Positions 7,049 to 41,307 of a stretch of 64,000 nucleotides of DNA are shown piece by piece (positions within the stretch are counted from its first letter, which is position 1; every line of letters begins with the position of its first letter). The DNA lies in the NCBI RefSeq assembly GCF_013394655.1, contig NZ_CP053351.1, positions 2,448,501 through 2,512,500 on the forward strand. Direction: 5' to 3'. Source of the DNA: Winogradskyella schleiferi. Its GTDB lineage: Bacteria > Bacteroidota > Bacteroidia > Flavobacteriales > Flavobacteriaceae. The notes beneath the pieces are model-generated. The model was not told the DNA's origin, searched no databases, and saw only the letters and a list, made by a program, of their open reading frames with translations. A program made the position numbers and the translations under genes.

Positions 7049-8995
7049 ATGAACAAAACAAACCTGTTTTGTAGCATCCTTGGTATTGGTATGCTATGCA
7101 CTGGTAATGCTCAAAAATTGCCAGTTACTATTGGGAAAGATTCAATTCCTGTCGAAGAATTAAATGAAGTCGTTGTTACAGATTCTAGATTTTATCTTAA
7201 ACGTGAAAATTCTGGTAAAGTGATTACCAAAATCACTTCAAGGGATTTAGAAAAACTTCAAGGGCAATCCATTGCTGAAATCATTGGTAGAACCGCTGGA
7301 ATAGAAATCAACGGTGTGCGAAGTAATTCCGGACAAAATTTAAGTTATTTAATTCGTGGTGGTCGTAACCGCCAGGTATTAGTGATGATTGACGGCATAC
7401 AAGTCACAGATGCCTCTCAAATTGCAAATGATTATGATTTACGATTATTGAACGCAGACCAAGTAGAATCCATTGAAATTCTAAAAGGTGCATCCAGTAC
7501 ACTTTATGGCACTGGTGCGGCAACGGCTGTGATTAATATTAAATTGAAGGAAGCTTCAAAAAAAGCGTTTAATTTAAATTTAAGAAGTACACTTGGCACC
7601 AATCGATCTTCAGATGAAAAGAATTATGCATTAGAAGATTTTAGAAATAGTCTTTCTGTAAATGGAACTCCTGGTAACCTTAATTATTTAGCCAGTTTTG
7701 GACAGCAATTTACGGATGGATTGTCTGCAATTGAAGCCGGAACCGAATCCGATGCTTACAATAGCTACAACGCTAATCTCAAATTGGGTTATAAATTTAA
7801 CAATGCGTTTAAATTGAATGCGTATGCAAATTATGATAATTTTAAGGCCGATTTTGATGACAGTTTTGCTATGCAGGATGCTAAGCATGTCTCGCTTTCT
7901 AATCAGTACAGAGTCGGTTTGTCACCTGAGTTCAGTTATAAAAATGGAAGTTTAACTGTTAATGCTGCTTATAGTGACGTGGAGCGTGAGATAGAATCTA
8001 GTTTTCCAACACTATTCAATGCTCAAAATATTGTTGTTGATGCTTTCAACCGAAATAACTTTAATGATAAATTTTATACAGTTTTAGGTGTTAATTATCA
8101 AGATAATCAGATGGAAAGTTTTACTATACCTTTTGGCGCGTCAGAATTTAGCCAAGCGATAGACTCTGAAAATGCACAATTTACCATTACAGACCCTTAT
8201 GCGAATGTGGTTTATAATTCAGATTTTGGACTCAACCTTAATGTTGGTTTGAGACTGAATAACCACAGTGAATATGGCAGTCATTTTGTATATGGTGTGA
8301 ATCCTTCTTACAAAGTGGATTTAGATTTTGGTTACCTAAAATTTCTAACAAGTTATAGCACAGCATTTATTACGCCTTCGCTTTACCAATTATTTGAACC
8401 AAGTTTTGGCAATTCTGATTTACAACCTGAAGAAAATGCTACAGCAGAAGTTGGTACAGAAATTTCATTGAAAAACAAAGCAACGCTTAGTTTGGTTTAT
8501 TTCCACAGAAACGAAACTAATTTTATTGATTTTGTTGATACTGGAAATTTTGTGTTTCAATATCAAAATACTGTAACATCCTTTACAGCTAGTGGTTTAG
8601 AATTTGTTGCACAAGCCAAACTTATTGAAAAATTAAATCTAAACCTCAACTTAACTTACACGTCTGTTGATGAAGATTTAAGTTTAAGAATTCCAGAAAT
8701 TAAACTGAATACCAGACTGGATTTCGATTTATCTGATACTACTATTTTAAGTTTATCCTATCAATACAATGACGATAGAGACGATTCTGTTTACAACCCT
8801 GATACCTTTCAAAATGATAAAATCACTCTAGATTCTTATGGATTACTTGATTTTTATATCAGCCATAAAATCATTGCTCACAAAATGACTGTTTTTGCCA
8901 ATGTGACCAATATCTTTAATGAAGACTATCAAGAACTTTTTGGTTTTACCACCAGAGGACGAGGTGTTAATATAGGGCTTAATTTGAATCTGTAA
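7049..8995 (+). CDS. btuB: TonB-dependent vitamin B12 receptor, BtuB-like
   Basis: A 648-residue outer-membrane receptor that would bring cobalamin into the periplasm using TonB energy. It has a signal peptide (about 1-21), a TonB-box-like segment ELNEVVVT near 38-45, a plug domain (about 55-170) with IRGGRNRQVLVMIDGIQV and ESIEILKGASSTLYGTGA, and a beta-barrel ending in an aromatic-rich C-terminus and a final Leu. Substrate assignment rests on the riboswitch immediately upstream and the facing FecCD/BtuF importer. No Shine-Dalgarno is seen before the ATG, as is usual in this phylum. Confidence 0.92.
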   Translation: MNKTNLFCSILGIGMLCTGNAQKLPVTIGKDSIPVEELNEVVVTDSRFYLKRENSGKVITKITSRDLEKLQGQSIAEIIGRTAGIEINGVRSNSGQNLSYLIRGGRNRQVLVMIDGIQVTDASQIANDYDLRLLNADQVESIEILKGASSTLYGTGAATAVINIKLKEASKKAFNLNLRSTLGTNRSSDEKNYALEDFRNSLSVNGTPGNLNYLASFGQQFTDGLSAIEAGTESDAYNSYNANLKLGYKFNNAFKLNAYANYDNFKADFDDSFAMQDAKHVSLSNQYRVGLSPEFSYKNGSLTVNAAYSDVEREIESSFPTLFNAQNIVVDAFNRNNFNDKFYTVLGVNYQDNQMESFTIPFGASEFSQAIDSENAQFTITDPYANVVYNSDFGLNLNVGLRLNNHSEYGSHFVYGVNPSYKVDLDFGYLKFLTSYSTAFITPSLYQLFEPSFGNSDLQPEENATAEVGTEISLKNKATLSLVYFHRNETNFIDFVDTGNFVFQYQNTVTSFTASGLEFVAQAKLIEKLNLNLNLTYTSVDEDLSLRIPEIKLNTRLDFDLSDTTILSLSYQYNDDRDDSVYNPDTFQNDKITLDSYGLLDFYISHKIIAHKMTVFANVTNIFNEDYQELFGFTTRGRGVNIGLNLNL

Positions 8996-14477: not shown

Positions 14478-14698
14478 CTGATAAGTTTGTAGTTTAGAGT
14501 TTAGAGTTCAGGGTTTTTTCCTTTATAGAATTTTAAAATTAGTTATTAGAATTTAAAATGTTTTTATAAAAATTATGGATTTTCTGATACGCAATGTGTA
14601 AAATAAAAATTTTTACATATAATATATTTTATTGATTTTCAACCCTTAACCATTTTAAAAACCTATATTTAACTTGAATTATAAATAGCTTCACATTT

Positions 14699-29448: not shown

Positions 29449-30780
29449 TTATTCTACCAGTTCATTTATAAACTCTAACCTTACTAAACCATCGTCATCT
29501 ATGTTAGTGAGAATCACATTATGAAGTGTATTTACCAAATCCGGATTCCATGGTGCTTTAACCTTAACGTAGTTCTCCGTAAAACCATGAATGTAACCTT
29601 CTTTATTTTCGCCTTCAAACAATACAGTTCTTTCCGTGTTTAATTGCTTTTCATAAAACGCACGTCGCTTTTTAGCCGATAATCCTCTTAGCATTTTACT
29701 GCGTTTTGCCCTAACATTTTTATAAACGGCACCTTCCATTTCTGCTGCTTCTGTATTGTCGCGTTCAGAATATTGGAACACATGTAAATAAGAAATATCC
29801 AATGTATTCAAAAAATTGTAAGTTTCTAAAAAAAGTTCATCCGTTTCTCCAGGAAAGCCAACTATGACATCCACTCCAATACAAGCGTGAGGCATAACTT
29901 CTTTTATTTTTGAAACTCTATCGACATATAATTCCTTCATATAGCGACGTTTCATCTTTTTTAAGATGTCATTGCTTCCGCTTTGCAACGGAACATGAAA
30001 ATGTGGTACAAATGCTCTAGATTTTGAGACTAAATCTATGGTTTCGTTTTTTAATAAATTGGGCTCAATGGATGAAATTCTTAGTCGTTCAATACCTTCC
30101 ACTTTATCGAGTTCAGTAACTAAATCTAAAAAAGTATGTTCGTGTTTTTTATTCCCGAATTCACCTTTTCCGTAATCGCCAATGTTCACTCCAGTTAATA
30201 CAATTTCCTTAATATTTTGTTCTGAAATTTCTCTGGCATTCGCAAGAACATTAGCCATAGTATCACTACGGGAAATACCTCTAGCCAACGGAATGGTGCA
30301 ATACGTACATTTATAATCGCAACCATCTTGAACCTTTAAAAATGCTCTGGTTCTGTCACCAATGGAATAACTGCCGACATAGAAATCGGCTTCTTCAATT
30401 TCGCAAGAATGCACTTCTCCGAAGTCGTTTTTAGTCAAATCATTTAAATAATCCGTGATTTTGAATTTCTCCGTTGCTCCCAAAACCAAATCCACGCCAT
30501 TCACATCTGCTAATTCTTCAGGTTTTAATTGGGCATAACATCCAATGGCTGCCACAAATGCTTCAGGATTATTTTTTTGAGCTTGTTTTACAATAGACTT
30601 AAATCGTTTATCCGCATTTTCGGTTACAGAACAGGTATTAATCACATAAATATCCGCCTTCTCCTTAAAATCCACACGATCAAAACCTTCATCTGTAAAA
30701 CCTCTGGCAATTGTTGAAGTTTCAGAAAAATTAAGTTTACAACCTAGTGTATAAAATGCGACTTTTTTTGTTGGATTCAT
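29449..30780 (-). CDS. mtaB: tRNA (N6-threonylcarbamoyladenosine37-C2)-methylthiotransferase MtaB
   Basis: A 443-residue radical-SAM enzyme that adds the methylthio group to t6A37 of ANN-decoding tRNAs. Three Cys of the N-terminal UPF0004 cluster are C14 (TLGCKLN), C50 (NTCSV) and C81 (IGCYAQ). The radical-SAM cluster is C154-x3-C158-x2-C161 (DGCDYKCTYCTIP). A TRAM domain occupies about 375-440. The CKLN form of the first motif favours MtaB over MiaB. It is divergent from the peptide-binding lipoprotein with a short gap. Confidence 0.92.
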   Translation of the reverse strand: MNPTKKVAFYTLGCKLNFSETSTIARGFTDEGFDRVDFKEKADIYVINTCSVTENADKRFKSIVKQAQKNNPEAFVAAIGCYAQLKPEELADVNGVDLVLGATEKFKITDYLNDLTKNDFGEVHSCEIEEADFYVGSYSIGDRTRAFLKVQDGCDYKCTYCTIPLARGISRSDTMANVLANAREISEQNIKEIVLTGVNIGDYGKGEFGNKKHEHTFLDLVTELDKVEGIERLRISSIEPNLLKNETIDLVSKSRAFVPHFHVPLQSGSNDILKKMKRRYMKELYVDRVSKIKEVMPHACIGVDVIVGFPGETDELFLETYNFLNTLDISYLHVFQYSERDNTEAAEMEGAVYKNVRAKRSKMLRGLSAKKRRAFYEKQLNTERTVLFEGENKEGYIHGFTENYVKVKAPWNPDLVNTLHNVILTNIDDDGLVRLEFINELVE

Positions 30781-30825
30781 TCTTGTACTTTTACCAAGTT
30801 GGCAAATTTACAACATATAAGTTAT

Positions 30826-32463
30826 ATGCTAAAACTCACACCGTTCTCATTCAATAGATTTCTTTTTGGTACATTATTTTTGATGATATGTTCTTGTACG
30901 TCTATAGATAACATTCAAAACCATGATCTCGTTTTTAGATATAACGAACACAAAAACATCGGCTCACTCGATCCCGCATTCTCAAAAGACTTGGCTGATA
31001 TTTGGGGAACACACCAGTTATTTAACGGGTTGGTGCAGATGGACGACGCATTAAACGTTAAGCCGTGTATTGCCAAAAATTGGACGATAACCGATAGTGC
31101 AAAGACCTACACGTTCAACTTGAGAAAAGATGTTCTATTCCATAAACATGAATTGTTCGGACGAGATTCCACAAGAAAAACAACTGCTTCAGATTTTGAA
31201 TATAGTTTCAACCGATTGAGAGACAGATTCATTGCATCTCCTGGAAGTTGGGTTCTAAATAAGGTGGACGATTTTTCAGCCCTCAATGATTCAACATTTC
31301 AAATTAAATTAAAACAGCCATTTCCTGCGTTTTTGGGTTTACTGACTATGAAATATTGTTCTGTTGTCCCAAAAGAGATTGTAGAACATTATGGCTCAGA
31401 TTTTAGGTCGAACCCAATCGGAACGGGACCATTTAAATTCAAGCGTTGGGAAGAAAATTTGAAATTGGTCTTTAGACGCAATAATCATTATTTTGAAACC
31501 GATTCAATAGGGCAACCACTGCCCTATCTTGAAGCTATTTCCATTACATTTTTACCAGACAAACAGAGTGAGTTTCTCCAGTTTGCACAAGGTAATATAG
31601 ATTTCGTATCGGGTTTAGATGGCTCTTATAAGGATGAAATTTTAACGGCTGAAGGAGAATTGAGAGCGAGCTATGCCCATGATGTAAAAATGATTCGTGG
31701 CCCCTATCTCAACACAGAATATTTGGCGTTTTTTATGGAAACTGAAGTCAACACCATTCAATCCGGAAAATTAAGGAAAGCGATTAACGTTGGTTTCGAT
31801 AGAAGCAAAATGATGACGTATCTGAGAAACGGCATCGGAATTCCTGCCAATGGAGGTTTTATTCCAAAGGGATTGCCAGGTTTTGATGCTTCCATAGGTT
31901 TTACTTATCAACCCGAATTAGCTAAACAATTAGTATCCGAATTTAAATCTGAAACAGGAATACAAAACCCTGAAATTACCTTAACTACTACAAGCAATTA
32001 TTTGAGTTTTTGTGAATTTATTCAGCGCGAGCTTCAAAAAACAGGTTTAAACGTGAATGTCGATGTGATACCTGCTTCAAGTTTAAAAGATGCCAAAGCG
32101 AATGGCCAGCTCGATTTTTTTAGAGCGAGTTGGATTGCAGATTATCCTGATGCTGAAAATTATTTGTCATTATATTACAGCAATAATTTTGCACCAAACG
32201 GCCCAAATTATACACATTTCAAAAGCGAAGCATTCGACAAAATGTATGAAGCATCATATTTAGAAACTGATCCAGAATTGAGAGCGCAACTTTATACCAA
32301 AATGGATTCCTTGATTATGGACGTGGCTCCTATTGTACCCTTATTTTATGATGAAGTTGTTAGGTTTACGAGAAAGAATGTGCAAGGCTTAGGGATCAAT
32401 GCCACTAATTTATTGGAATTGAAATCTGTAAGAAAGTCATTTAATATGACGGAAGTTGAATGA
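30826..32463 (+). CDS. Peptide/oligopeptide ABC transporter substrate-binding lipoprotein (SBP family 5)
   Basis: A 545-residue extracytoplasmic solute-binding protein. From the ATG the N-terminus is a lipoprotein signal ending MICSC (Cys near 24). The family pattern follows: NIGSLDPAFSKDLADIWGTHQLFNGLVQMD, then DFEYSFNRLRD, NPIGTGPFKFKRWEENLKLVFRRN, and ARASWIADYPDAENYLSLYYS. A longer reading frame begins at TTG 30799 but would bury the signal peptide, so ATG 30826 is chosen. No transporter permease genes are adjacent; it must work with one encoded elsewhere. Confidence 0.88.
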   Translation: MLKLTPFSFNRFLFGTLFLMICSCTSIDNIQNHDLVFRYNEHKNIGSLDPAFSKDLADIWGTHQLFNGLVQMDDALNVKPCIAKNWTITDSAKTYTFNLRKDVLFHKHELFGRDSTRKTTASDFEYSFNRLRDRFIASPGSWVLNKVDDFSALNDSTFQIKLKQPFPAFLGLLTMKYCSVVPKEIVEHYGSDFRSNPIGTGPFKFKRWEENLKLVFRRNNHYFETDSIGQPLPYLEAISITFLPDKQSEFLQFAQGNIDFVSGLDGSYKDEILTAEGELRASYAHDVKMIRGPYLNTEYLAFFMETEVNTIQSGKLRKAINVGFDRSKMMTYLRNGIGIPANGGFIPKGLPGFDASIGFTYQPELAKQLVSEFKSETGIQNPEITLTTTSNYLSFCEFIQRELQKTGLNVNVDVIPASSLKDAKANGQLDFFRASWIADYPDAENYLSLYYSNNFAPNGPNYTHFKSEAFDKMYEASYLETDPELRAQLYTKMDSLIMDVAPIVPLFYDEVVRFTRKNVQGLGINATNLLELKSVRKSFNMTEVE

Positions 32464-32599
32464 CAGAAGACGGAAGAGCTAAAAGTTTTAGCACAAAGTT
32501 CCACAAAAAAGGCATAAAGCTTCACAAAGAAATAAAGAATTCGCTTAACAAATAAGTTCTATTATGTTATGGTTAAGTCGCGATGTGTCCCTAAAATAA
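32464..32599. other. Intergenic region with CACAAAG-type words
   Basis: Between convergent genes. Contains degenerate words AGCACAAAGTTCCACAAA and AGCTTCACAAAGAAATAAAG (about 32490-32540), similar in style to words at 3.25 kb and 63.3 kb. No terminator stem was recognised. Confidence 0.4.
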
Positions 32600-33511
32600 T
32601 TATTTACCAGAAAATCCCGAGAAATAATACAAATCGTCACCACCTTCTCCTCTTAATCGCCTTGAAGATAAGTAGCCTGTTGTTAAATCATCATTCAAAA
32701 AAAATGAAAAGTCATCTCCACGATCGTTAATTGGTGCATCTAATGAGACTGGTTTTTGGTCCTCATCATTGGATTCCAAATCGTAACTGTAAATATCTAT
32801 ACCTCCTTTTCCACCGCGTCTATCGGAAGAGAAATAAAGCTTGTTATCTGCACTTACAAATGGAAATATCTCGGTTCGAGAGGAGTTAATCTTTTCGCTT
32901 AATTTAGTAACTTCACCATAGGTTTTATGGTCAGAAACCGATACTTTATATAAATCTGATTTTCCTTTTGTGCCTTTTACATCGGCAATAAAATAGAGCG
33001 TAGAGCCATCAGGGCTTAACGCAGGATGTGCAAAATTATGGTCAGGATCGCAAAATGGCAATGTTGTAAAATTAGTCCAACCTATGCCTTCTTCATATTC
33101 GGCACGCTGGATCAATAGGTTGAACGTATTCTTATCTTGTAATTTATTCTCTCCTTTTTCCGTATGGTTAGATGTAAAATACATATATTTCCCATCTTTA
33201 GAATAAGTGGCTACCGACATATTAGACATGCCAACCTCTGGTCTTTTTAGAAGCTCAACATTTTTAATTTCACCATCCTCATCTATAGTACCTTCATAAA
33301 TACCAAAAAGTTGTTGAGAAAATTTGTCTAAAATAGCACGACCTCTTTTGGTCACTAAGTTAGAACTCAAAAGGACTTTATCATTTACAACTCTTGCAGC
33401 AAAATGATCAAGTTTATTATTGATTTTAAGATTTTTAATCTCAACCTCTTGCGAAAATCCAAGGCTTATAAAAAATAAAAAAAGTAGGGTAAATTTGGGT
33501 AATGGTTTCAT
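32600..33511 (-). CDS. PD40/WD40-like beta-propeller protein, secreted
   Basis: A 303-residue exported protein: signal peptide MKPLPKFTLLFLFFISLGFSQ, then repeated PD40-type blades (YSKDGKYMYFTSN, LSPDGSTLYFIADVKGTKGKSDLYKVS, VSADNKLYFSSDRRGGKGGIDIYSY, GYLSSRRLRGEGGDDLYYFSG). Such propellers often precede OmpA-like domains in this phylum, but none is present. The longer frame from TTG 33544 reads through a duplicated fragment of the GlmU-like gene and is rejected. The ATG lies one base after the relic stop codon of that fragment, suggesting an ancestral tight operon with a GlmU-like gene. Confidence 0.82.
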   Translation of the reverse strand: MKPLPKFTLLFLFFISLGFSQEVEIKNLKINNKLDHFAARVVNDKVLLSSNLVTKRGRAILDKFSQQLFGIYEGTIDEDGEIKNVELLKRPEVGMSNMSVATYSKDGKYMYFTSNHTEKGENKLQDKNTFNLLIQRAEYEEGIGWTNFTTLPFCDPDHNFAHPALSPDGSTLYFIADVKGTKGKSDLYKVSVSDHKTYGEVTKLSEKINSSRTEIFPFVSADNKLYFSSDRRGGKGGIDIYSYDLESNDEDQKPVSLDAPINDRGDDFSFFLNDDLTTGYLSSRRLRGEGGDDLYYFSGFSGK

Positions 33512-33512
33512 G

Positions 33513-33568
33513 TTATTCTCTTCTATATTGTTTTGTTTCTTCAAATATGTGTTCTAAAATGGCCTTGT
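33513..33568 (-). pseudogene. Relic copy of the GlmU-like gene 3' end (left direct repeat)
   Basis: These 56 bases match 40132-40187 at 53 positions, with a 42-base identical core at 33521-33562. Read on the minus strand they encode KAILEHIFEETKQYRRE plus a stop, against KSILEHIFEETKQYRKD plus a stop in the intact gene: 14 of 17 residues identical and the three changes conservative. Upstream the frame soon reaches a stop. This is a displaced 3' end of a slightly diverged allele, sitting one base before the PD40 start codon. Confidence 0.85.
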
Positions 33569-33596
33569 AGAAGTGGTTTTAAAATTTTTATGTTTT

Positions 33597-35384
33597 CTAT
33601 TTAACTTCAAAAATACTATTTATATAGATTTTTTCACCCTGTTCCGTAAATCCTTCAAGTACTATCTCGTAAAAACCTGTCACACTAGAGGTATAAAATT
33701 CAATTTCCTTTCTTGGAGCATCTACTATAAATCTTGGCTTCCATAATAATAGCGTTCTAAAATCTGGCACGTGTTTATCAATTGATTCGTGAGTTTGGTA
33801 AAAGTAACGTTTAGGGTTTATTACTGGTTTCACATTTAATTTAAGTACACTGCCTTGATCAAAGTTAAAATTATTTGGTGTTTTTAGTCTAATATCAATT
33901 ATGCCATTATAAAATATCAATCCATCAATATATGTGCCTTTCACCAAGTTTATGGACTCTATCTCCTTTGGATCGTATTCCACAACATATTTTTCGTCCA
34001 TAAAATGTACTCCATTGAAAATTAACAATGGACTTGCTTCATCAAATAATCTAGTATTATCTATAGCGTTATTCTCATAAACCAAAAACTTATAGTCTTG
34101 TCCATCGTTTCTAATAGCAGCTTGCTGCACCACCTCAACAAATGTTTCTTTTAGTGTTTTAAAACGTGTATAATCATCTAAAACATATACTAAATCTGGC
34201 TTTCCGTAAAAAGGTAACGGATTCTGCTGATTTATGATGCTATCTCGTTTTAGGTTGAAATAGGCACTTTCTACTTGATTAAAAACACTTCGATTCTCGA
34301 CCCAGTTCCGAATATCCTTATTAATTTTTAAGGGATAAAACTTCAAATCATCATAAGCATCAAAATATGTTGAGTCTAATAGTATCTTATAATAATGTTG
34401 ATCTTTTAGTTCTAATTGCAAATAGCCAACTTTATCATCATAGTTTTCAATCATATTAAAATAAAACTCACCTGACTTATTTGTTGTTGCCGACTTATAA
34501 ATCACATCATCTCCTTGCATGGACAACGAAACCGAAATCTTCTCTACTGGTTTATTGTCTTTTATGTTTATAACCTTACCAGATATTAATTCACCTCTGT
34601 AATCTGGTAGACGCAGTTCTTTCACCTTTTGTTCGTTTTCTATATTTTGATTGGTGTTGTTATGTGCCACAAAAATCGAATTCATTTTTTTTACTGAAAG
34701 CGTATAACTGCCAAAATTGGAAGCCCCTTCTTTATTTTCAATCTGAAGCGTAACTTTTTGTCTTTTGGCATACACACTATCAATGGTAAATAAAGTGATT
34801 TCTGAATTGACATTTTTTTGTTCAGTCATTAATTTTTTATTGACTAAACCAATTTCAATATACTTTTCTGTAGCTCCAAATGTGCTTATAAGGTTATTGT
34901 CCCAAGCATTCAAAAATGGATTAATCAGATACACGTCATTGTGAGCATAGGCATTCTCATAATTATTTAAACTCCAATTGGTATAGCCTATTAGTTTGTA
35001 TTGTCCAGTTTTTAATGAAGTAGGCAAGAAAAAATCACCTGAGGCTCTGCCATTTAGCAGTTTTAATTTATGCTTAAAAACTACATTTCTATTACGATCA
35101 ACTAGTTCTACATAAGCTATCTTACTAATATCACTATATGAGTTTGTTATTAGACTATAGAAGTCATAATATAAAGTTTCCCCAGATAAAATAATACTAT
35201 CGTTAATTTTTAAGAACACCTTTTCGGAAGGCACGTCTTGAGTCAAAGATAATTTATTGGAATCCTTTTGAGCATTTCCAATGTAACTAAAAGTTAGGAC
35301 AAAAAATACTATGCCAATATTTGTGATTAATCTTCCCAAAATTCTGGTATTACAGTTGATGAAATTCTTGTACAATCTCCACAT
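33597..35384 (-). CDS. Large exported protein with carboxypeptidase-regulatory-like domain
   Basis: A 595-residue protein with a signal peptide that ends FSYIGNAQ near residue 39. A first Ig/MG2-like domain (EKVFLKINDSIILSGETLYYDFYSLI, GDFFLPTSLKTGQYKLIGYTNW) resembles domains of alpha-macroglobulin-type and TonB-linked proteins. A carboxypeptidase-regulatory-like domain (GKVINIKDNKPVEKISVSL) lies near 260-330. Its ATG lies 58 bases inside the DUF4249 gene; a TTG near 35339 would shorten the overlap and give a neater signal peptide. Last gene of the four-gene cassette between the direct repeats, probably working with the TonB receptor at the surface. Confidence 0.7.
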   Translation of the reverse strand: MWRLYKNFINCNTRILGRLITNIGIVFFVLTFSYIGNAQKDSNKLSLTQDVPSEKVFLKINDSIILSGETLYYDFYSLITNSYSDISKIAYVELVDRNRNVVFKHKLKLLNGRASGDFFLPTSLKTGQYKLIGYTNWSLNNYENAYAHNDVYLINPFLNAWDNNLISTFGATEKYIEIGLVNKKLMTEQKNVNSEITLFTIDSVYAKRQKVTLQIENKEGASNFGSYTLSVKKMNSIFVAHNNTNQNIENEQKVKELRLPDYRGELISGKVINIKDNKPVEKISVSLSMQGDDVIYKSATTNKSGEFYFNMIENYDDKVGYLQLELKDQHYYKILLDSTYFDAYDDLKFYPLKINKDIRNWVENRSVFNQVESAYFNLKRDSIINQQNPLPFYGKPDLVYVLDDYTRFKTLKETFVEVVQQAAIRNDGQDYKFLVYENNAIDNTRLFDEASPLLIFNGVHFMDEKYVVEYDPKEIESINLVKGTYIDGLIFYNGIIDIRLKTPNNFNFDQGSVLKLNVKPVINPKRYFYQTHESIDKHVPDFRTLLLWKPRFIVDAPRKEIEFYTSSVTGFYEIVLEGFTEQGEKIYINSIFEVK

Positions 35385-36541
35385 TCGGCTCTTACAAAAT
35401 TAAATATTGGATGTTGTCCTCCTAAATATAGAAATTCTGGTTCTGCCACTGAAAATATACTATACATGTAGCTACGATCATTTCGGTCAAAATCTTCTGT
35501 TGTATTATCAATATAATCGAGATCAGTTAAAAATTCACATTCAGAAAAATAAGGTGGTTTTTGAATGTTAAAATCCGAATAATTAAAATACAAACGCGAT
35601 GAAGAAACCGACGATACTTGAAAAAAGCCAACTACACTTTGTTCTGGATTTTCAACGCAGGTTATATTACCTTGAACAAAACCTGGTTGGTTTTCTACCA
35701 AAAGGTTTTCTGTTATTCCCAATTCTTTTAATACTCTATAAAAATTATAAGCTTCAAAAGATTGAACATACTGTTTAACTAAAATACTATAGCGCTCTCT
35801 CAAAATTGCATTCTCCTGTTTTATAAATCTGACCGGAAAATCTACTATCGAACTGACCTCCAACTCATTTAATGACGCTTGAATTATAGCCGTCGAATTC
35901 TTTGTAGAGTAACATACCCTGACATTTTCATCTTTTGGTTGAAGAACAATATCATACTCTAGAGAGTCACCCGAACCAACAACATTTTCTATTGTAAAGT
36001 CAAAATTATTGTAATATGGAGCTATCACTTTATAGGTTTCCTCATAATCGTATTTAAAAAATGTGGCTTCTCCAGCTGCGCTATTAACGAGGACTTGAAC
36101 GCCTTGTTCTCCATTAACTGTTAGTAATTCCGCACTAAGATTTTGAATTTCTGAAACTGGAGGAGCTATCTCTGGGCTTGAGACATAGTTTAATCCATCC
36201 GCTGCAGCTATGTGCAGTATGTATGTTTCACCTTCAAAGGTTTGGAAATTGCTATTAGACATGTAATTACCCATTCCGAAATTACTGAATGTATAGATAT
36301 TTTGATTACCGTCTTCTACCCAAACCTGAGCATCATTTACATAAATTGGCTGTTCAGAATTTAATGGTATTGTTCTGGATAGTTGAATTTTTTGAGGTCC
36401 TAGTTGATCTATTAAAGTAGCTTCAACTACCAATAAACTCTCAAAGTTTTTTTCTGTTAATTCATAGCGTTCAGTACAACTCATAAATAAGCTGACAATA
36501 GCAGAAAAATAAAAGAGCTTTATATAGTGTTTTCTTTTCAT
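35327..36541 (-). CDS. DUF4249 domain lipoprotein
   Basis: A 404-residue protein with a lipoprotein signal ending FMSC (Cys about 21) and the DUF4249 pattern: LLVVEATLIDQLGPQKIQLSRTIPL, DAQVWVEDGNQNIYTF, GETYILHIAAADGLNYVSS, and a late GNITCVENPEQSVVGFFQVSSVSSSRLYFNY segment with the paired Cys near the end (CGDC). DUF4249 genes are regularly found directly after a TonB receptor, as here (the receptor stop and this ATG abut). It probably caps or assists that receptor at the outer membrane. Confidence 0.88.
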   Translation of the reverse strand: MKRKHYIKLFYFSAIVSLFMSCTERYELTEKNFESLLVVEATLIDQLGPQKIQLSRTIPLNSEQPIYVNDAQVWVEDGNQNIYTFSNFGMGNYMSNSNFQTFEGETYILHIAAADGLNYVSSPEIAPPVSEIQNLSAELLTVNGEQGVQVLVNSAAGEATFFKYDYEETYKVIAPYYNNFDFTIENVVGSGDSLEYDIVLQPKDENVRVCYSTKNSTAIIQASLNELEVSSIVDFPVRFIKQENAILRERYSILVKQYVQSFEAYNFYRVLKELGITENLLVENQPGFVQGNITCVENPEQSVVGFFQVSSVSSSRLYFNYSDFNIQKPPYFSECEFLTDLDYIDNTTEDFDRNDRSYMYSIFSVAEPEFLYLGGQHPIFNFVRAECGDCTRISSTVIPEFWED

Positions 36542-39328
36542 CTAAAACTTAAAGTTATATGTAATTGTAGGAATCGGTATAGCAAAAATAGATGTTTTAT
36601 AGGCTTGTATTGAACCTTCATTATTGACATAAAAAACAGAATACGGATTACTTCGACCTAAAACATTATATACAGATATATTTATAAAACTATGTGCTAA
36701 CTTTTCAAGTTTGTGACTGCCTTCAATATTCACACCAAGGTCTAATCTATAATAATCTGGAATCCTTGCTTTATTTCTATCACTATAAATAACTTGTTCA
36801 GTTCCATTAAATATAAACTTTCCGACCGGATAAGTTAAAGGTCTTCCCGTCTGATAATTGAAATTCATAGAAAAACTATAACGCTTAGTAAGTCTAAAGT
36901 TAGAGACTATATTAAAATCATGTGGTCTATCATAATTGGCCGGAAAATAATTACCATTATTTATTGTCTCAGTTAAAAATTGACTTTGTAGCTGTATTAA
37001 TGATCGCGAATACGAGTAACTTAACCAACCATTTAATTTACCATTATTTTTTTTAACCAAAAGTTCTAAACCATATGCTTTGCCTTTTCCTTGTAAAACT
37101 TCGGTTTCTATATTTTCATTCAAACTTAATTGAGCTCCAATTTTAAAGTCCAAAATGTCTGACATTTTTTTATAATACGTTTCAAAACTTAATTCATAGT
37201 TATTATCTGAAAAATTCTTGAAAATACCAAATGACACTTGGTGTGCTACTTGTGGTTTAATATTTAAGTCAGATAATTTCCAAGTATCTACAGGTGACAT
37301 CGTTGTATTACTTGAAAGTAAATGGATATATTGTAAGGTCTTATTATAGGAACCTTTTACTGATAGTGTTGGCGATAAAAAGTAACGACCAGATAATCGG
37401 TATTCTAAGCCACCATAGGTTTTTACAATCGCATTGTTCTCGAAGGATTTTGTTTCTATTACACTATTATCCGATTTTGGCTGAGAAGAATCGTAAACGT
37501 TATAATCTCCTGGTCCTAAAGCAAAATAGAGTGAATACCTTAGACCCAAATCTAAGGAAAGCTTATCGTTGATTTTAAATAAGTCGGAAATAAAGATGGC
37601 AGATTCTAATGCTTTTTCTTTTTCAATACGGTTAGATTCAACATTAGAATTTTCATCTAATGGTTTTATATTTCCTGGCTCAATATTATATAATTTACTG
37701 CTAATACCATAATCGAACTTATGTTGCTTACTCATTAAATATTTCATATTTAATTTAAGCTCTGTTTCATTTAAAGTATAATCGTAGCCGAAGTCGTTAT
37801 TAAAATCACTATCATAAGTGATTTTGAATTTATATTGGGTATTAGCAAGTGTTATCGTTCCTCGATTTTTGTTATCAAACGTGTGATTCCATTTTAAAGA
37901 TGCCAAGCGATTACTATAATCAAACAACGAGTCAGATGTAATGCTAAATTTATCTTTACTATAAAATCCCATAGCGCTAACATCATTTTTATCATCAATT
38001 TTAGAACTATATTTTATGATACCATCATAAAATGAGGCTTCGCTATTACTTATGGTTTCTTCGTCTATAGTATTTAAAATCCAATCAGAATATGTAGCTC
38101 TAACACCAGCAATTATTGAAGATTTATTTTTTGCAATAGGCACCTCTACAGCTAAATTACCAGTTACTGGCCCGATACTACCTTCAGCAGAAAATTTCTC
38201 AGTATTGGATGATTTTGTAGTCATATCTATAACAGATGATAAGCGACCGCCGAATTCAGCAGGAACACTGCCTTTGTATATATTAACACTTCCAGTGGTA
38301 AATGGATTAATAGCCGAAAAAATACCGAAAAAATGTGATGGGTTATACATTACAGCATCGTCCATTAAAATAAGATTTTGATCCGTTTTCCCTCCTCGCA
38401 CATTGTAACCTAAAGCCCCTTCCCCATTAGTTTTAATCCCTGGCATAGTTGTGGCTACCTTTAAAACATCACGTTCACCTAATATCAATGGCACAGTTTT
38501 AATAGCTTCTACATCTATAGATGTCACTCCAGACATTACTTCTTTAACATTCGCATCCCTATCATTTTCAATTAAAACTTCATCTAATAGCGTTAAAGAC
38601 TCTATAAGAGAAAAGTCCAAATTACCATCTCCGTAGACAACAACTTCTTGTGCATTAGTTTCGTAAGCTATTGATTTGGTTTCTATAATGTAAGATCCAC
38701 TAGGTAATTTCAATTCGTAATTTCCATTACTATCTGTAACGGCATTAATGTCTTTACTGACAACATTGACTATTAAATCCGGAATCGGTCTATTTGTATT
38801 TAAATCTTTCACAAGACCAGTTATTTTATACCGCTTTTTTACTGCTGATTTACTAGCTTTACCAATCGCAACCACAGTTCCTCCGGTTCTGATTTTCACA
38901 TTTGTATATTGTTTTATGAGTACAGGAGTTCGAGAATTAATAGAGTCTAAATTACTTTCAGTATCCGAAATGCTATCTTCAGCACTTTTAAGATCTTCAT
39001 TAAAAAAAACACTTGGTAACGTATCAACTATTAAACTATTCTGTGTGAATATGACAGTGTCGTTATAAATTAAATAATTTAGGCTTGTATCTTGCAGAAT
39101 GGTCTTAAGTATAAAATCTAAAGTCTGGGATTTAAAAGCACCTGAGACTTTTATATCCTCTAACCAAGACTCTTGAAAGTAATAATCTTGATGAGTTAAA
39201 TTCTCCAACTCTAGCAAAGCTTCCTTTAATGAAGTCTCATCAAAAGTGATTGAAAACTTATCTGTATGTTGTGCATACAAATTTTGAAAACATAGAAACC
39301 ATATTACAAATAGGATGAGTCCTTTCAT
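36542..39328 (-). CDS. TonB-dependent receptor with N-terminal STN and carboxypeptidase-regulatory domains
   Basis: A 928-residue outer-membrane receptor: signal peptide (about 1-19); STN domain (about 24-95, ITFDETSLKEALLELENLT) of the kind that signals to FecR proteins; an extra linker; carboxypeptidase-regulatory-like domain (about 168-245, GLVKDLNTNRPIPDLIVNV); plug (about 270-370, GYNVRGGKTDQNLILMDDAVMYN); and a beta-barrel ending in Phe. The STN domain predicts a sigma/anti-sigma partner, but none is adjacent. With the DUF4249 gene it forms a receptor pair; no SusD homologue is present. Substrate unknown. Confidence 0.9.
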   Translation of the reverse strand: MKGLILFVIWFLCFQNLYAQHTDKFSITFDETSLKEALLELENLTHQDYYFQESWLEDIKVSGAFKSQTLDFILKTILQDTSLNYLIYNDTVIFTQNSLIVDTLPSVFFNEDLKSAEDSISDTESNLDSINSRTPVLIKQYTNVKIRTGGTVVAIGKASKSAVKKRYKITGLVKDLNTNRPIPDLIVNVVSKDINAVTDSNGNYELKLPSGSYIIETKSIAYETNAQEVVVYGDGNLDFSLIESLTLLDEVLIENDRDANVKEVMSGVTSIDVEAIKTVPLILGERDVLKVATTMPGIKTNGEGALGYNVRGGKTDQNLILMDDAVMYNPSHFFGIFSAINPFTTGSVNIYKGSVPAEFGGRLSSVIDMTTKSSNTEKFSAEGSIGPVTGNLAVEVPIAKNKSSIIAGVRATYSDWILNTIDEETISNSEASFYDGIIKYSSKIDDKNDVSAMGFYSKDKFSITSDSLFDYSNRLASLKWNHTFDNKNRGTITLANTQYKFKITYDSDFNNDFGYDYTLNETELKLNMKYLMSKQHKFDYGISSKLYNIEPGNIKPLDENSNVESNRIEKEKALESAIFISDLFKINDKLSLDLGLRYSLYFALGPGDYNVYDSSQPKSDNSVIETKSFENNAIVKTYGGLEYRLSGRYFLSPTLSVKGSYNKTLQYIHLLSSNTTMSPVDTWKLSDLNIKPQVAHQVSFGIFKNFSDNNYELSFETYYKKMSDILDFKIGAQLSLNENIETEVLQGKGKAYGLELLVKKNNGKLNGWLSYSYSRSLIQLQSQFLTETINNGNYFPANYDRPHDFNIVSNFRLTKRYSFSMNFNYQTGRPLTYPVGKFIFNGTEQVIYSDRNKARIPDYYRLDLGVNIEGSHKLEKLAHSFINISVYNVLGRSNPYSVFYVNNEGSIQAYKTSIFAIPIPTITYNFKF

Positions 39329-39348
39329 TCAATATATCAGAGTTTAAA

Positions 39349-40062
39349 TTATTCAGTATCTAAATGACTAAAAAGAGAAATCATAAAAGCTTTCGAATCT
39401 CGTACTTTTAAAATTTTATTTTTTTTGTAGAATGATTTTATTTTCGACTTTTCTTGTGGTAATACATCTATGATATCATTTTTTGAAGTCAATTGATAAT
39501 ATTCTGTATCATATTCTAGCAGTAAAATTTCAGACTCTAAAAACTCATATAGAACGGTTTTATCAACAAGTCGCTTTTTTATATTTTTTTGGTGCTTTAA
39601 AAATAAATTGAAGTTTTGACCTTTATAAAGTTGCTCAAAAAAACCATTATTATAAAATGAAAATTTTGACGCTTTGTGTGGTAGTCTCAAAAACGTAGAA
39701 CCATAAATTTTAAAAGCATCAATATGCAAAGAACTTAAAATAATTTCAAAACTCTTATCTTCTGTATTGTTTCTAAAAACAATCTGATCTTCAAGGAGAT
39801 CGTATTTTATATTAGCATCGAAGAAAGGTTGACCATTATATTGAAGAAAAGCTGTTGTATATACGTTGGATTTAAAAAATCTAAAGTCATTTTTTGAATA
39901 GGTCCTATTAAAATCATCTACAAACCTTATACCTTGACTTAAATCATTATTAATCGTTCCTACGATCTTATCAAACTCTTTATAGTTATTTGAAGAATTA
40001 TTTTGTGAAAAAATTGTGACAGGAATAAGTAAATAAAATACTACGTTAATATTGAATTTCAT
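39349..40062 (-). CDS. Exported protein of unknown function
   Basis: A 237-residue protein with a signal peptide (about 1-19, ending TIFSQ). The mature part is rich in Asn, Lys, Phe and Tyr, with strands such as NDFRFFKSNVYTTAFLQYNGQPFFDANIKYDLLEDQIVFRN and LYKGQNFNLFLKHQKNIKKRLVDKTVLYEF. I recognise no family. It lies 20 bases upstream of the TonB receptor on the same strand and is the first gene of the cassette between the direct repeats, so it is probably co-expressed with the receptor. Confidence 0.72.
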   Translation of the reverse strand: MKFNINVVFYLLIPVTIFSQNNSSNNYKEFDKIVGTINNDLSQGIRFVDDFNRTYSKNDFRFFKSNVYTTAFLQYNGQPFFDANIKYDLLEDQIVFRNNTEDKSFEIILSSLHIDAFKIYGSTFLRLPHKASKFSFYNNGFFEQLYKGQNFNLFLKHQKNIKKRLVDKTVLYEFLESEILLLEYDTEYYQLTSKNDIIDVLPQEKSKIKSFYKKNKILKVRDSKAFMISLFSHLDTE

Positions 40063-40131
40063 TAGGGCTAAGTAATTATGGTCAAAGTTAAGATTAAAAC
40101 GGATTATGCCAAGTTTATAGACCTATATTTA

Positions 40132-40187
40132 TTAGTCTTTTCTATATTGTTTTGTTTCTTCAAATATGTGTTCTAAAATGGACTTGT
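40132..40187 (-). repeat. Right direct repeat: 3' end of the intact GlmU-like gene
   Basis: The last 56 bases of the GlmU-like gene, including its stop codon (40132-40134), recur at 33513-33568 with three differences. The identical core is 40140-40181. Together the two copies bracket the four-gene receptor cassette in direct orientation, 6,619 bases apart. Confidence 0.92.
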
Positions 40188-41307
40188 CTTGGTCTGTAAA
40201 TTCTTCTTTTCGTCTTGCCATAACTACTTCAGCAACTTCAAATGCTTTATTAGTTTTATAGGTTACAAACCCCTTACTTCCTCCCCAAGAAAAACTTGGC
40301 ACAAAATTCCTTGGAAATCCACTTCCAAAGATATTAGCACTTACACCAACAACTGTTCCAGTATTAAACATGGTGTTAATACCACATTTACTATGGTCTC
40401 CCATCATTAAACCGCAGAATTGTAATCCAGTTTTTGCAAAACCCTCGGTTTGGTAATCCCAAAGTCTAACTTCAGCATAATTATTCTTTAAGTTACTATT
40501 ATTTGTGTCTGCTCCGAGATTACACCATTCGCCTAAAACTGAATTACCTAAAAAGCCATCGTGTCCTTTATTAGAAAAACCAAATATGACAGAGTTATTG
40601 ACTTCACCTCCAATTTTACTATATGGTCCAACCGTTGTAGGTCCATATACCTTAGTACCTAATTTCAAGGCTGCATTATTACAAAGTGCCAAAGGACCTC
40701 TAACCATAGAACCTTCCATAATTTCCGCATCTCTACCAATATATATGGGACCAGAACTTGCATTTAAGGTTGCGAAATTTATGACAGCTCCTTTTTCGAT
40801 AAAAATGTTTTCAGGGTTGAGGGTATTTACGGTTGAAGGAATAGGTTGTGACTTTCTATCTTTTGTAATTAAATTAAAATCTTCTGCAATGGCGTCTCCG
40901 TTTTTAGAAAAAATATCCCAAGTATGTTCAATCTTTAAAATATCTCCTTGGAGTTCTATGGCTTCAAATGTTGAAAAATCCGAGTGCTCTTCGCCTTCTT
41001 TAGCATAAAATGCAATGACGTCTTCATCTTTGAACAATGCTTGATTATGCTCTAAATTCCTTACAATTTCAGCAACCTCATAATTTGGAAGAAATGAAGC
41101 ATTGATCATGATATTATCATCCATTTCAACCATAGGAAACTTATCTGCCAAATAATCTTCAGTAATAGTTGTGGTTGTATATTCTAGATAGGATTCCCAT
41201 TTTTGTCGAATAGTTAAAATACCAACTCTGATATCCGCCACAGGTCTTGTAAAGGTAAATGGCAACAAGTTGTTGCGATATGGCCCATCAAATAATATAT
41301 AGTTCAT
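40132..41307 (-). CDS. GlmU-like sugar nucleotidyltransferase with left-handed beta-helix
   Basis: A 391-residue protein. The N-terminus (MNYILFDGPYRNNLLPFTFTRPVADIRVGILTIRQKWE) is the flavobacterial GlmU-family variant of the nucleotidyltransferase domain. The C-terminal half has hexapeptide repeats of a left-handed beta-helix (IGRDAEIMEGSMVRGPLALCNNAALKLGTKVYGPTTVGPYSKIGGEV) as in acetyltransferases. The classical GxGTRM loop of GlmU is absent, so the donor nucleotide chemistry is uncertain. Its final 17 codons are duplicated at 33.5 kb, and the receptor cassette begins just beyond its stop. Confidence 0.85.
   Translation of the reverse strand: MNYILFDGPYRNNLLPFTFTRPVADIRVGILTIRQKWESYLEYTTTTITEDYLADKFPMVEMDDNIMINASFLPNYEVAEIVRNLEHNQALFKDEDVIAFYAKEGEEHSDFSTFEAIELQGDILKIEHTWDIFSKNGDAIAEDFNLITKDRKSQPIPSTVNTLNPENIFIEKGAVINFATLNASSGPIYIGRDAEIMEGSMVRGPLALCNNAALKLGTKVYGPTTVGPYSKIGGEVNNSVIFGFSNKGHDGFLGNSVLGEWCNLGADTNNSNLKNNYAEVRLWDYQTEGFAKTGLQFCGLMMGDHSKCGINTMFNTGTVVGVSANIFGSGFPRNFVPSFSWGGSKGFVTYKTNKAFEVAEVVMARRKEEFTDQDKSILEHIFEETKQYRKD

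Follow-up and report, generated by a model that had tools for sequence, protein, structure and literature searches.

A four-gene TonB receptor/DUF4249 operon inserted behind a GlmU-like gene of Winogradskyella schleiferi and bracketed by a duplicated gene end

In Winogradskyella schleiferi, a four-gene operon encoding a TonB-dependent receptor and a DUF4249 protein is inserted between a GlmU-like gene and a PD40 gene, and the insert is bracketed by two copies of the GlmU-like gene end. The locus lies in a stretch of 64,000 nucleotides (contig NZ_CP053351.1, positions 2,448,501 to 2,512,500), hereafter called the window. The inserted segment of 6563 nt (33569..40131, minus strand) is flanked by a direct repeat of 56 nt with 53/56 identical positions (95%). 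The right copy (40132..40187, minus strand) forms the 3' terminus of the intact GlmU-like open reading frame (ORF) (40132..41307, minus strand; 391 aa; TIGR03991, alt_bact_glmU), which serves as the anchor of the insertion. The left copy (33513..33568, minus strand) is a relic of the same gene end directly upstream of PD40: its terminal TAA is separated by one base from the ATG at 33511 with which PD40 starts. Numbered in the direction of the minus strand, the mismatches fall on positions 6, 49 and 53 and leave a perfect core of 42 nt; repeat search and recount thus agree with the geometry given in the initial annotation, and the four minus-strand genes that it had placed between the copies were found as well, with 237, 928, 404 and 595 aa.

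The repeat pair is not a matter of chance similarity or of a common genomic repeat. In three mononucleotide shuffles of the window, the best ungapped match of the repeated 56-mer reached 31/56, and in the 64 kb the 56-nt pair was the sole direct repeat of at least 55 bits. A query of 301 bases around the left copy matched just these two sites in the species' own genome (G000; 4,560,973 bases), ruling out a dispersed repeat, an outcome that the initial annotation had named as incompatible with an insertion.

The GlmU gene was present in 65 of 68 Winogradskyella genomes searched, including the own genome, and the other 64 loci were retrieved for comparison. In the stretches retrieved, none of the four operon proteins has a match at any of these loci (E up to 1e-8). 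In the nearest relative, G014 (locus L113; GlmU 96%), the TAA of GlmU is followed by a single C and the ATG of PD40, exactly the empty site that had been predicted, and a gene order with both repeat copies common to all relatives, which would have spoken against the insertion model, was not encountered in the 64 congeners. The insertion of the four-gene operon between the GlmU-like gene and PD40 is therefore real. The genes beyond PD40, an SBP_bac_5 gene (SBP5; 30799-32463, plus strand) and a MiaB-like radical SAM gene (29449-30780, minus strand), both assigned by domain search, form a conserved flank (29449..32463) that was found downstream of GlmU in 63/64 congener loci; the exception, L151, is a stretch that stops about 750 bp behind GlmU. 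PD40 itself (32600..33511, minus strand) was identified by domain search and, from the gene order in congeners, as the gene that originally followed the GlmU-like gene. It matched behind GlmU in 50 of the 64 congeners, as a fragment only in L118, and gave no match in 14, so that it seems to have been lost repeatedly in the genus. In eight loci (L119, L120, L125, L126, L130, L145, L146 and L157), the SBP5 and MiaB-like genes are separated by about 3 kb of additional DNA.

With moderate confidence, we interpret the event in the window as an additive integration by one-sided homology, anchored at a gene end shared by donor and recipient, and not as the product of integrase attachment sites. According to this interpretation, the operon (c1 - TonB receptor - DUF4249 - c4) would have been added behind the GlmU-like gene after the split from G014, by incoming DNA that carried a GlmU gene end beside the operon. 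This DNA would have recombined with the resident GlmU gene through the shared end only, while the opposite end, which lies 28 bp beyond c4, would have been attached without long homology inside the resident gene, 56 bp short of its terminus. Equivalently, the fragment may have been circularised at this joint and integrated by a single crossover. Either way, the expected outcome would be intact GlmU, operon, 56-nt relic and PD40, with the relic as a scar instead of an attachment site. The donor would presumably have been an unsampled close relative with the operon next to GlmU, and delivery may have occurred by natural transformation; natural competence is reported within the family for Riemerella (PMC8383284). 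Homologous recombination between diverged alleles, offered as an alternative in the initial annotation, comes close to this interpretation. In Escherichia coli, 14 sequenced clones had duplicated 109-950 bp of a gene end, which was ascribed to a single crossover of a circular molecule minus part of the homologous segment (PMC3240628). Homology-facilitated illegitimate recombination or circular single crossover resembles the present case in having one homologous end and a duplicated anchor gene end, but it was observed after laboratory plasmid conjugation, whereas our scars of 56 and 164 nt are inferred from genome sequences.

The scar of 164 nt was found in G403, where a 98% identical copy of the 3' end of the gene for DNA polymerase III alpha (dnaE) lies behind a dnaE-linked operon. 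In this genome, dnaE and the operon are followed, in this order, by a shortened duplicate of the dnaE-trx intergenic region, the dnaE relic, a gene for a 528-aa protein on the other strand without Pfam match, the intergenic region and trx. The relic starts at TATTAAAT, a microhomology that the dnaE end has in common with the intergenic region. Two genomes of the same genus provide the corresponding unscarred and empty states: G466 has dnaE, operon, intergenic region and trx without a relic, and G464 has dnaE, intergenic region and trx without an operon. The layout of G403 fits a fragment of dnaE end, operon and intergenic region that would have entered by dnaE homology and whose far end was either joined by microhomology or circularised before a single crossover; either the operon or the 528-aa gene may have arrived last. 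An attachment site does not fit G403, because the operon of G466 at the same place has none. The event in the window is inferred to have followed the same route. A repeat-like stretch (ATTCTAAATAG...GAGTAGTGAAAGC) was noted in the dnaE-trx intergenic region of all three loci, L292 (G403), L330 (G466) and L316 (G464), with a diverged form present twice in G403.

Operons of this type occur in a number of Flavobacteriaceae. Operon DNA gave matches in 141/299 genomes of the family and c1 in 79/397, the own genome included in both cases; many of the DNA matches are confined to a portion of the receptor. We compared the window with 60 other operon loci, namely 58 obtained from family matches (of the 92 other c1 matches listed) and two loci from the genus, G013 and G056. 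A TonB receptor follows c1 in all 60, and all 60 fetched stretches contain a match to the DUF4249 protein, the best one lying upstream of c1 in L279. A c4 match was found in 58/60 (L295 and L309 are without), and some loci have extra DNA between the genes. A YifB/ComM-like gene, named from our reading of the sequences, lies downstream of the operon in L279, L290, L296, L303 and L306. Carriage by known plasmids or phages was considered and rejected: the receptor matched 25 plasmid records, all below 60% identity (best-ranked 38%), and c1 had no match to phage records at 1e-5.

Among the 61 operons compared, the closest to that of the window was found in G164, which belongs to another genus (62% amino acid identity for the TonB receptor, 38% for c1), and G164 is also the sister of the window in a quick receptor tree of 62 rows (99 in the Shimodaira-Hasegawa-like approximate likelihood ratio test, SH-aLRT). 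In G164, GlmU lies directly upstream of the operon, at 70 bp from c1 compared to 69 bp in the window, and this was the only one of the 60 other loci with GlmU in the fetched flank. After c4 of G164 no relic of GlmU was detected. Its congener G365 is empty at GlmU, and G366 and G367 gave no c1 match. The two closest receptors elsewhere in Winogradskyella, those of G013 and G056, have 51% identity, and no GlmU gene was seen in the flanks retrieved for them. Two genera have thus received related operons at this gene end, and a scar is present in one of them but not in the other. As the operons of both G164 and G466 lack a gene-end repeat, such a repeat is no inherent part of the operon. Linkage of operon and anchor gene was seen in G164 for GlmU and in G466 and G312 for dnaE. 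The unscarred loci of G164 and G466 together with the scar of G403 and its microhomology are the reason why we favor integration by one-sided homology.

The initial annotation had suggested a recurring site of surface-receptor exchange. For GlmU, this holds for one other genus, G164, and for none of the 64 congeners, and other cargoes at the GlmU end flanked by the same core, which had likewise been envisaged, were looked for in the retrieved stretches of 144 other GlmU loci and not found. In 31 of the 61 operon loci, at least one further locus has the same upstream neighbour; these form ten groups, some of which lie within one genus (penicillin-acylase-like 6, lysophospholipase-like 5, GlmU 2, dnaE 2, and others; the names, GlmU and dnaE excepted, are our reading of the sequences). 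The ten site labels require 10 changes on the receptor tree compared to a minimum of nine, indicating that operon lineages mostly keep their site. The dnaE-linked operons of G312 on the one hand and G403 and G466 on the other hand are unrelated, as a single clade was rejected by the approximately unbiased test (p-AU 1.2e-5; the group was chosen after the tree had been seen), which means that one gene end received two different operons. Recurrent exchange is therefore better supported at dnaE, with two unrelated operons, than at GlmU, where two genera point to it weakly.

Both copies of the repeat look as if they stem from the recipient's own clade and not from a distant donor. The sequence CACATATTTG occurs in both copies and, among the 144 other GlmU loci (129 distinct), only in G014, which places both ends within the clade of the species. 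The incoming DNA may have brought a slightly diverged 3' end, as proposed in the initial annotation. The two copies differ at 3/56 positions, whereas the minimum distance to any other locus is 6 for the right and 5 for the left copy. At the three differing codons, the left copy encodes A, R and E as in the genus consensus, the functional right copy S, K and D, and G014 A, R and D. An imported tract within GlmU was rejected, as blocks of 84 nt differ from G014 at 3 to 12 positions (at 8 in the last block), an even divergence without a break inside the gene. It is possible that the whole GlmU gene was imported with the operon from a related species. This would fit the divergence from G014 at 4-fold sites, which was highest for GlmU among the six genes compared between window positions 29449-41307 and L113 (GlmU 0.52, MiaB-like 0.46, SBP5 0.38, GT 0.27, PD40 0.22, 84-aa ORF 0.14), but it is not conclusive. 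The gene-to-gene spread of these values (0.14-0.52) may reflect frequent recombination between relatives in this region.

For each of the 61 operons, the two 0.8-kb flanks were searched for their best shared direct repeat, and the scores were compared to a control of 61 mismatched pairs with a maximum of 18. The control was exceeded in five loci, G403 (155), the window (47), L305 (37), L277 (31) and L279 (20); with longer flanks, the same loci reached 283, 88.7, 103, 59.9 and 39.2 bits, respectively, compared to a control maximum of 38.3. Repeats of at least 55 bits that span the operon were present in 4/61 loci, including the window, and differ in sequence. Against this, 128 non-operon loci (114 distinct) contained one repeat pair of at least 55 bits at a spacing of 3-12 kb, which with 68% identity was taken for a paralogue. 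In L252, L255, L261, L279 and L302, repeat pairs of at least 55 bits do not span the operon. The repeat of L305 (G289), 137 nt with 77% identity and a palindromic core on both sides of the operon, is degenerate and looks like a dispersed repeat. In L277 (G099), a 40-nt, 92.5% identical copy of the 3' part of an intact tRNA-Ala(GGC) gene brackets a related operon (7451-7490 and 14483-14522), and no integrase gene was recognised between the copies. In the window, a second copy of the last 45 nt of GlmU matches 43/45 positions; in the 144 other loci, where stretches of between 206 bp and 16.5 kb downstream of the gene were examined, no match exceeded 30/45.

Tyrosine integrases place genomic islands in the 3' ends of genes or tRNAs, generating an intact gene, the insert and a duplicated 3' end. 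The initial annotation had compared the locus with such elements, and the operon could accordingly be the cargo of an integrase-borne or trans-mobilised islet, similar to cis-mobilizable elements (CIME), with the GlmU 3' end in its attP and the repeats as attL and attR. The order of intact gene, insert and 3' relic, with direct repeats of the target gene's 3' end on both sides, matches this scheme, as does the tRNA-Ala fragment around the operon of L277, and the genome has nine matches to the tyrosine recombinase domain PF00589, eight of them over the cut-off and all outside the window (serine recombinases were not searched genome-wide). Nevertheless, neither the ORF list nor the domain search revealed an integrase among the four genes between the repeats, the repeated sequence occurs only twice in the genome and has no second copy in the stretches examined behind GlmU in the 144 other loci, the dnaE and GlmU ends are unrelated in sequence so that the sites have no core in common, and the relatives G164 and G466 are unrepeated at their gene ends. 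With a second scar derived from an unrelated gene, site-specific integration appears unlikely to us. Even less probable is a broader version, in which the c1-TonB-DUF4249-c4 operons would be non-autonomous mobile islets that hop between housekeeping 3' ends (glmU, dnaE, tRNA-Ala) by a common trans-acting mechanism duplicating 40-164 nt.

A homology-independent insertion with target duplication, by a long staggered break or a replication template switch, would predict two initially identical copies with three substitutions since. The own-clade appearance of both copies agrees with this, and so does their divergence of 0.056, which is below the 4-fold divergence from G014 (GlmU 0.52, PD40 0.22, pooled 0.37), as expected for a younger duplication. 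On the other hand, such a mechanism leaves unexplained why the closest operon, that of G164, sits behind the same gene in another genus, and the G403 joint in microhomology, with the intergenic region carried along and duplicated, suggests that in the donor the operon was linked to dnaE beforehand. We consider target duplication about as improbable as integration by an integrase. The position of the G164 operon could also indicate that the operon was anciently present behind GlmU and was lost cleanly and repeatedly in other species. This is very improbable, as all 64 congener loci, including the sister G014, as well as G365 are empty, G164 lacks the repeats that clean loss would use, and the closest receptors elsewhere in the genus (G013 and G056) share 51% identity and do not adjoin GlmU in the flanks retrieved.

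Integration by one-sided homology has to be weighed against several observations as well. No donor strain was found in which a GlmU gene with an own-clade end is linked to the operon, and the divergence from G014 runs along GlmU without a step. At the left joint of the window, a microhomology would be recognisable only from the donor sequence after c4. The dnaE copies of G403 are, like the copies in the window, highly similar (98%), so that the crossover would have to lie near the stop codon at both loci, which is unexpected if the homologous flank was long. ComEC is present in Winogradskyella, yet also in 10/14 control genomes, E. coli included, and is not specific for competence. Scars are the exception, since 56/61 operon loci have no flank repeat above the control, and the tRNA-Ala 3' fragment bracketing the operon of L277 is the classical layout of an integrase.

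The first gene of the operon, c1 (39349..40062, minus strand; 237 aa, from the ORF list), has no Pfam or NCBIfam match at 0.001, and its N-terminus suggests an exported protein. It is followed by the TonB-dependent receptor (36542..39328, minus strand; 928 aa) with N-terminal FecR_C, CarbopepD_reg_2 and Plug domains, of which we read FecR_C as probably STN-like; no solved structure matched the receptor by sequence at 0.001. The DUF4249 gene (35327..36541, minus strand; 404 aa; PF14054, 8.3e-36) overlaps by 58 nt with c4 (33597..35384, minus strand; 595 aa), which has a CarboxypepD_reg match under the curated cut-off. Structure predictions for c1 and c4 without alignment were too poor for use, with mean predicted local distance difference test scores (pLDDT) of 36 and 35. 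The GC content of the operon genes (0.25-0.33) is lower than that of their neighbours (0.34-0.37), which is weak evidence. The receptor adjoins the PF14054 protein, as in TonB-DUF4249 operons, and from the family names and the precedent of BT2172/BT2173, a TonB-dependent transporter with a DUF4249 partner (PMC11003636), the operon may constitute an outer-membrane uptake system of unspecified substrate. The four-gene form with c1 and c4, known here from sequence, distinguishes the present operon from BT2172/BT2173.

Accessory operons at junctions between core genes have been compared among genomes within species, and double recombination at both flanks was proposed (PMC5635113, 2017). That case resembles ours in the fixed core-gene junction, the absence of mobile-element genes and the alternative contents at the junction, but the locus described here spans genera and carries a one-sided scar. 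Among the open-access papers listed in our searches, none described the present locus or such gene-end scars. Flavobacteria differ in their surface receptors, and the insert analyzed here contains no mobile-element gene. The two scars together with the empty and occupied sister loci suggest that such operons can be transferred by anchoring on the end of a conserved neighbour, being added and not swapped. A relic of a gene 3' end behind an accessory operon is a signature that can be counted across genomes.

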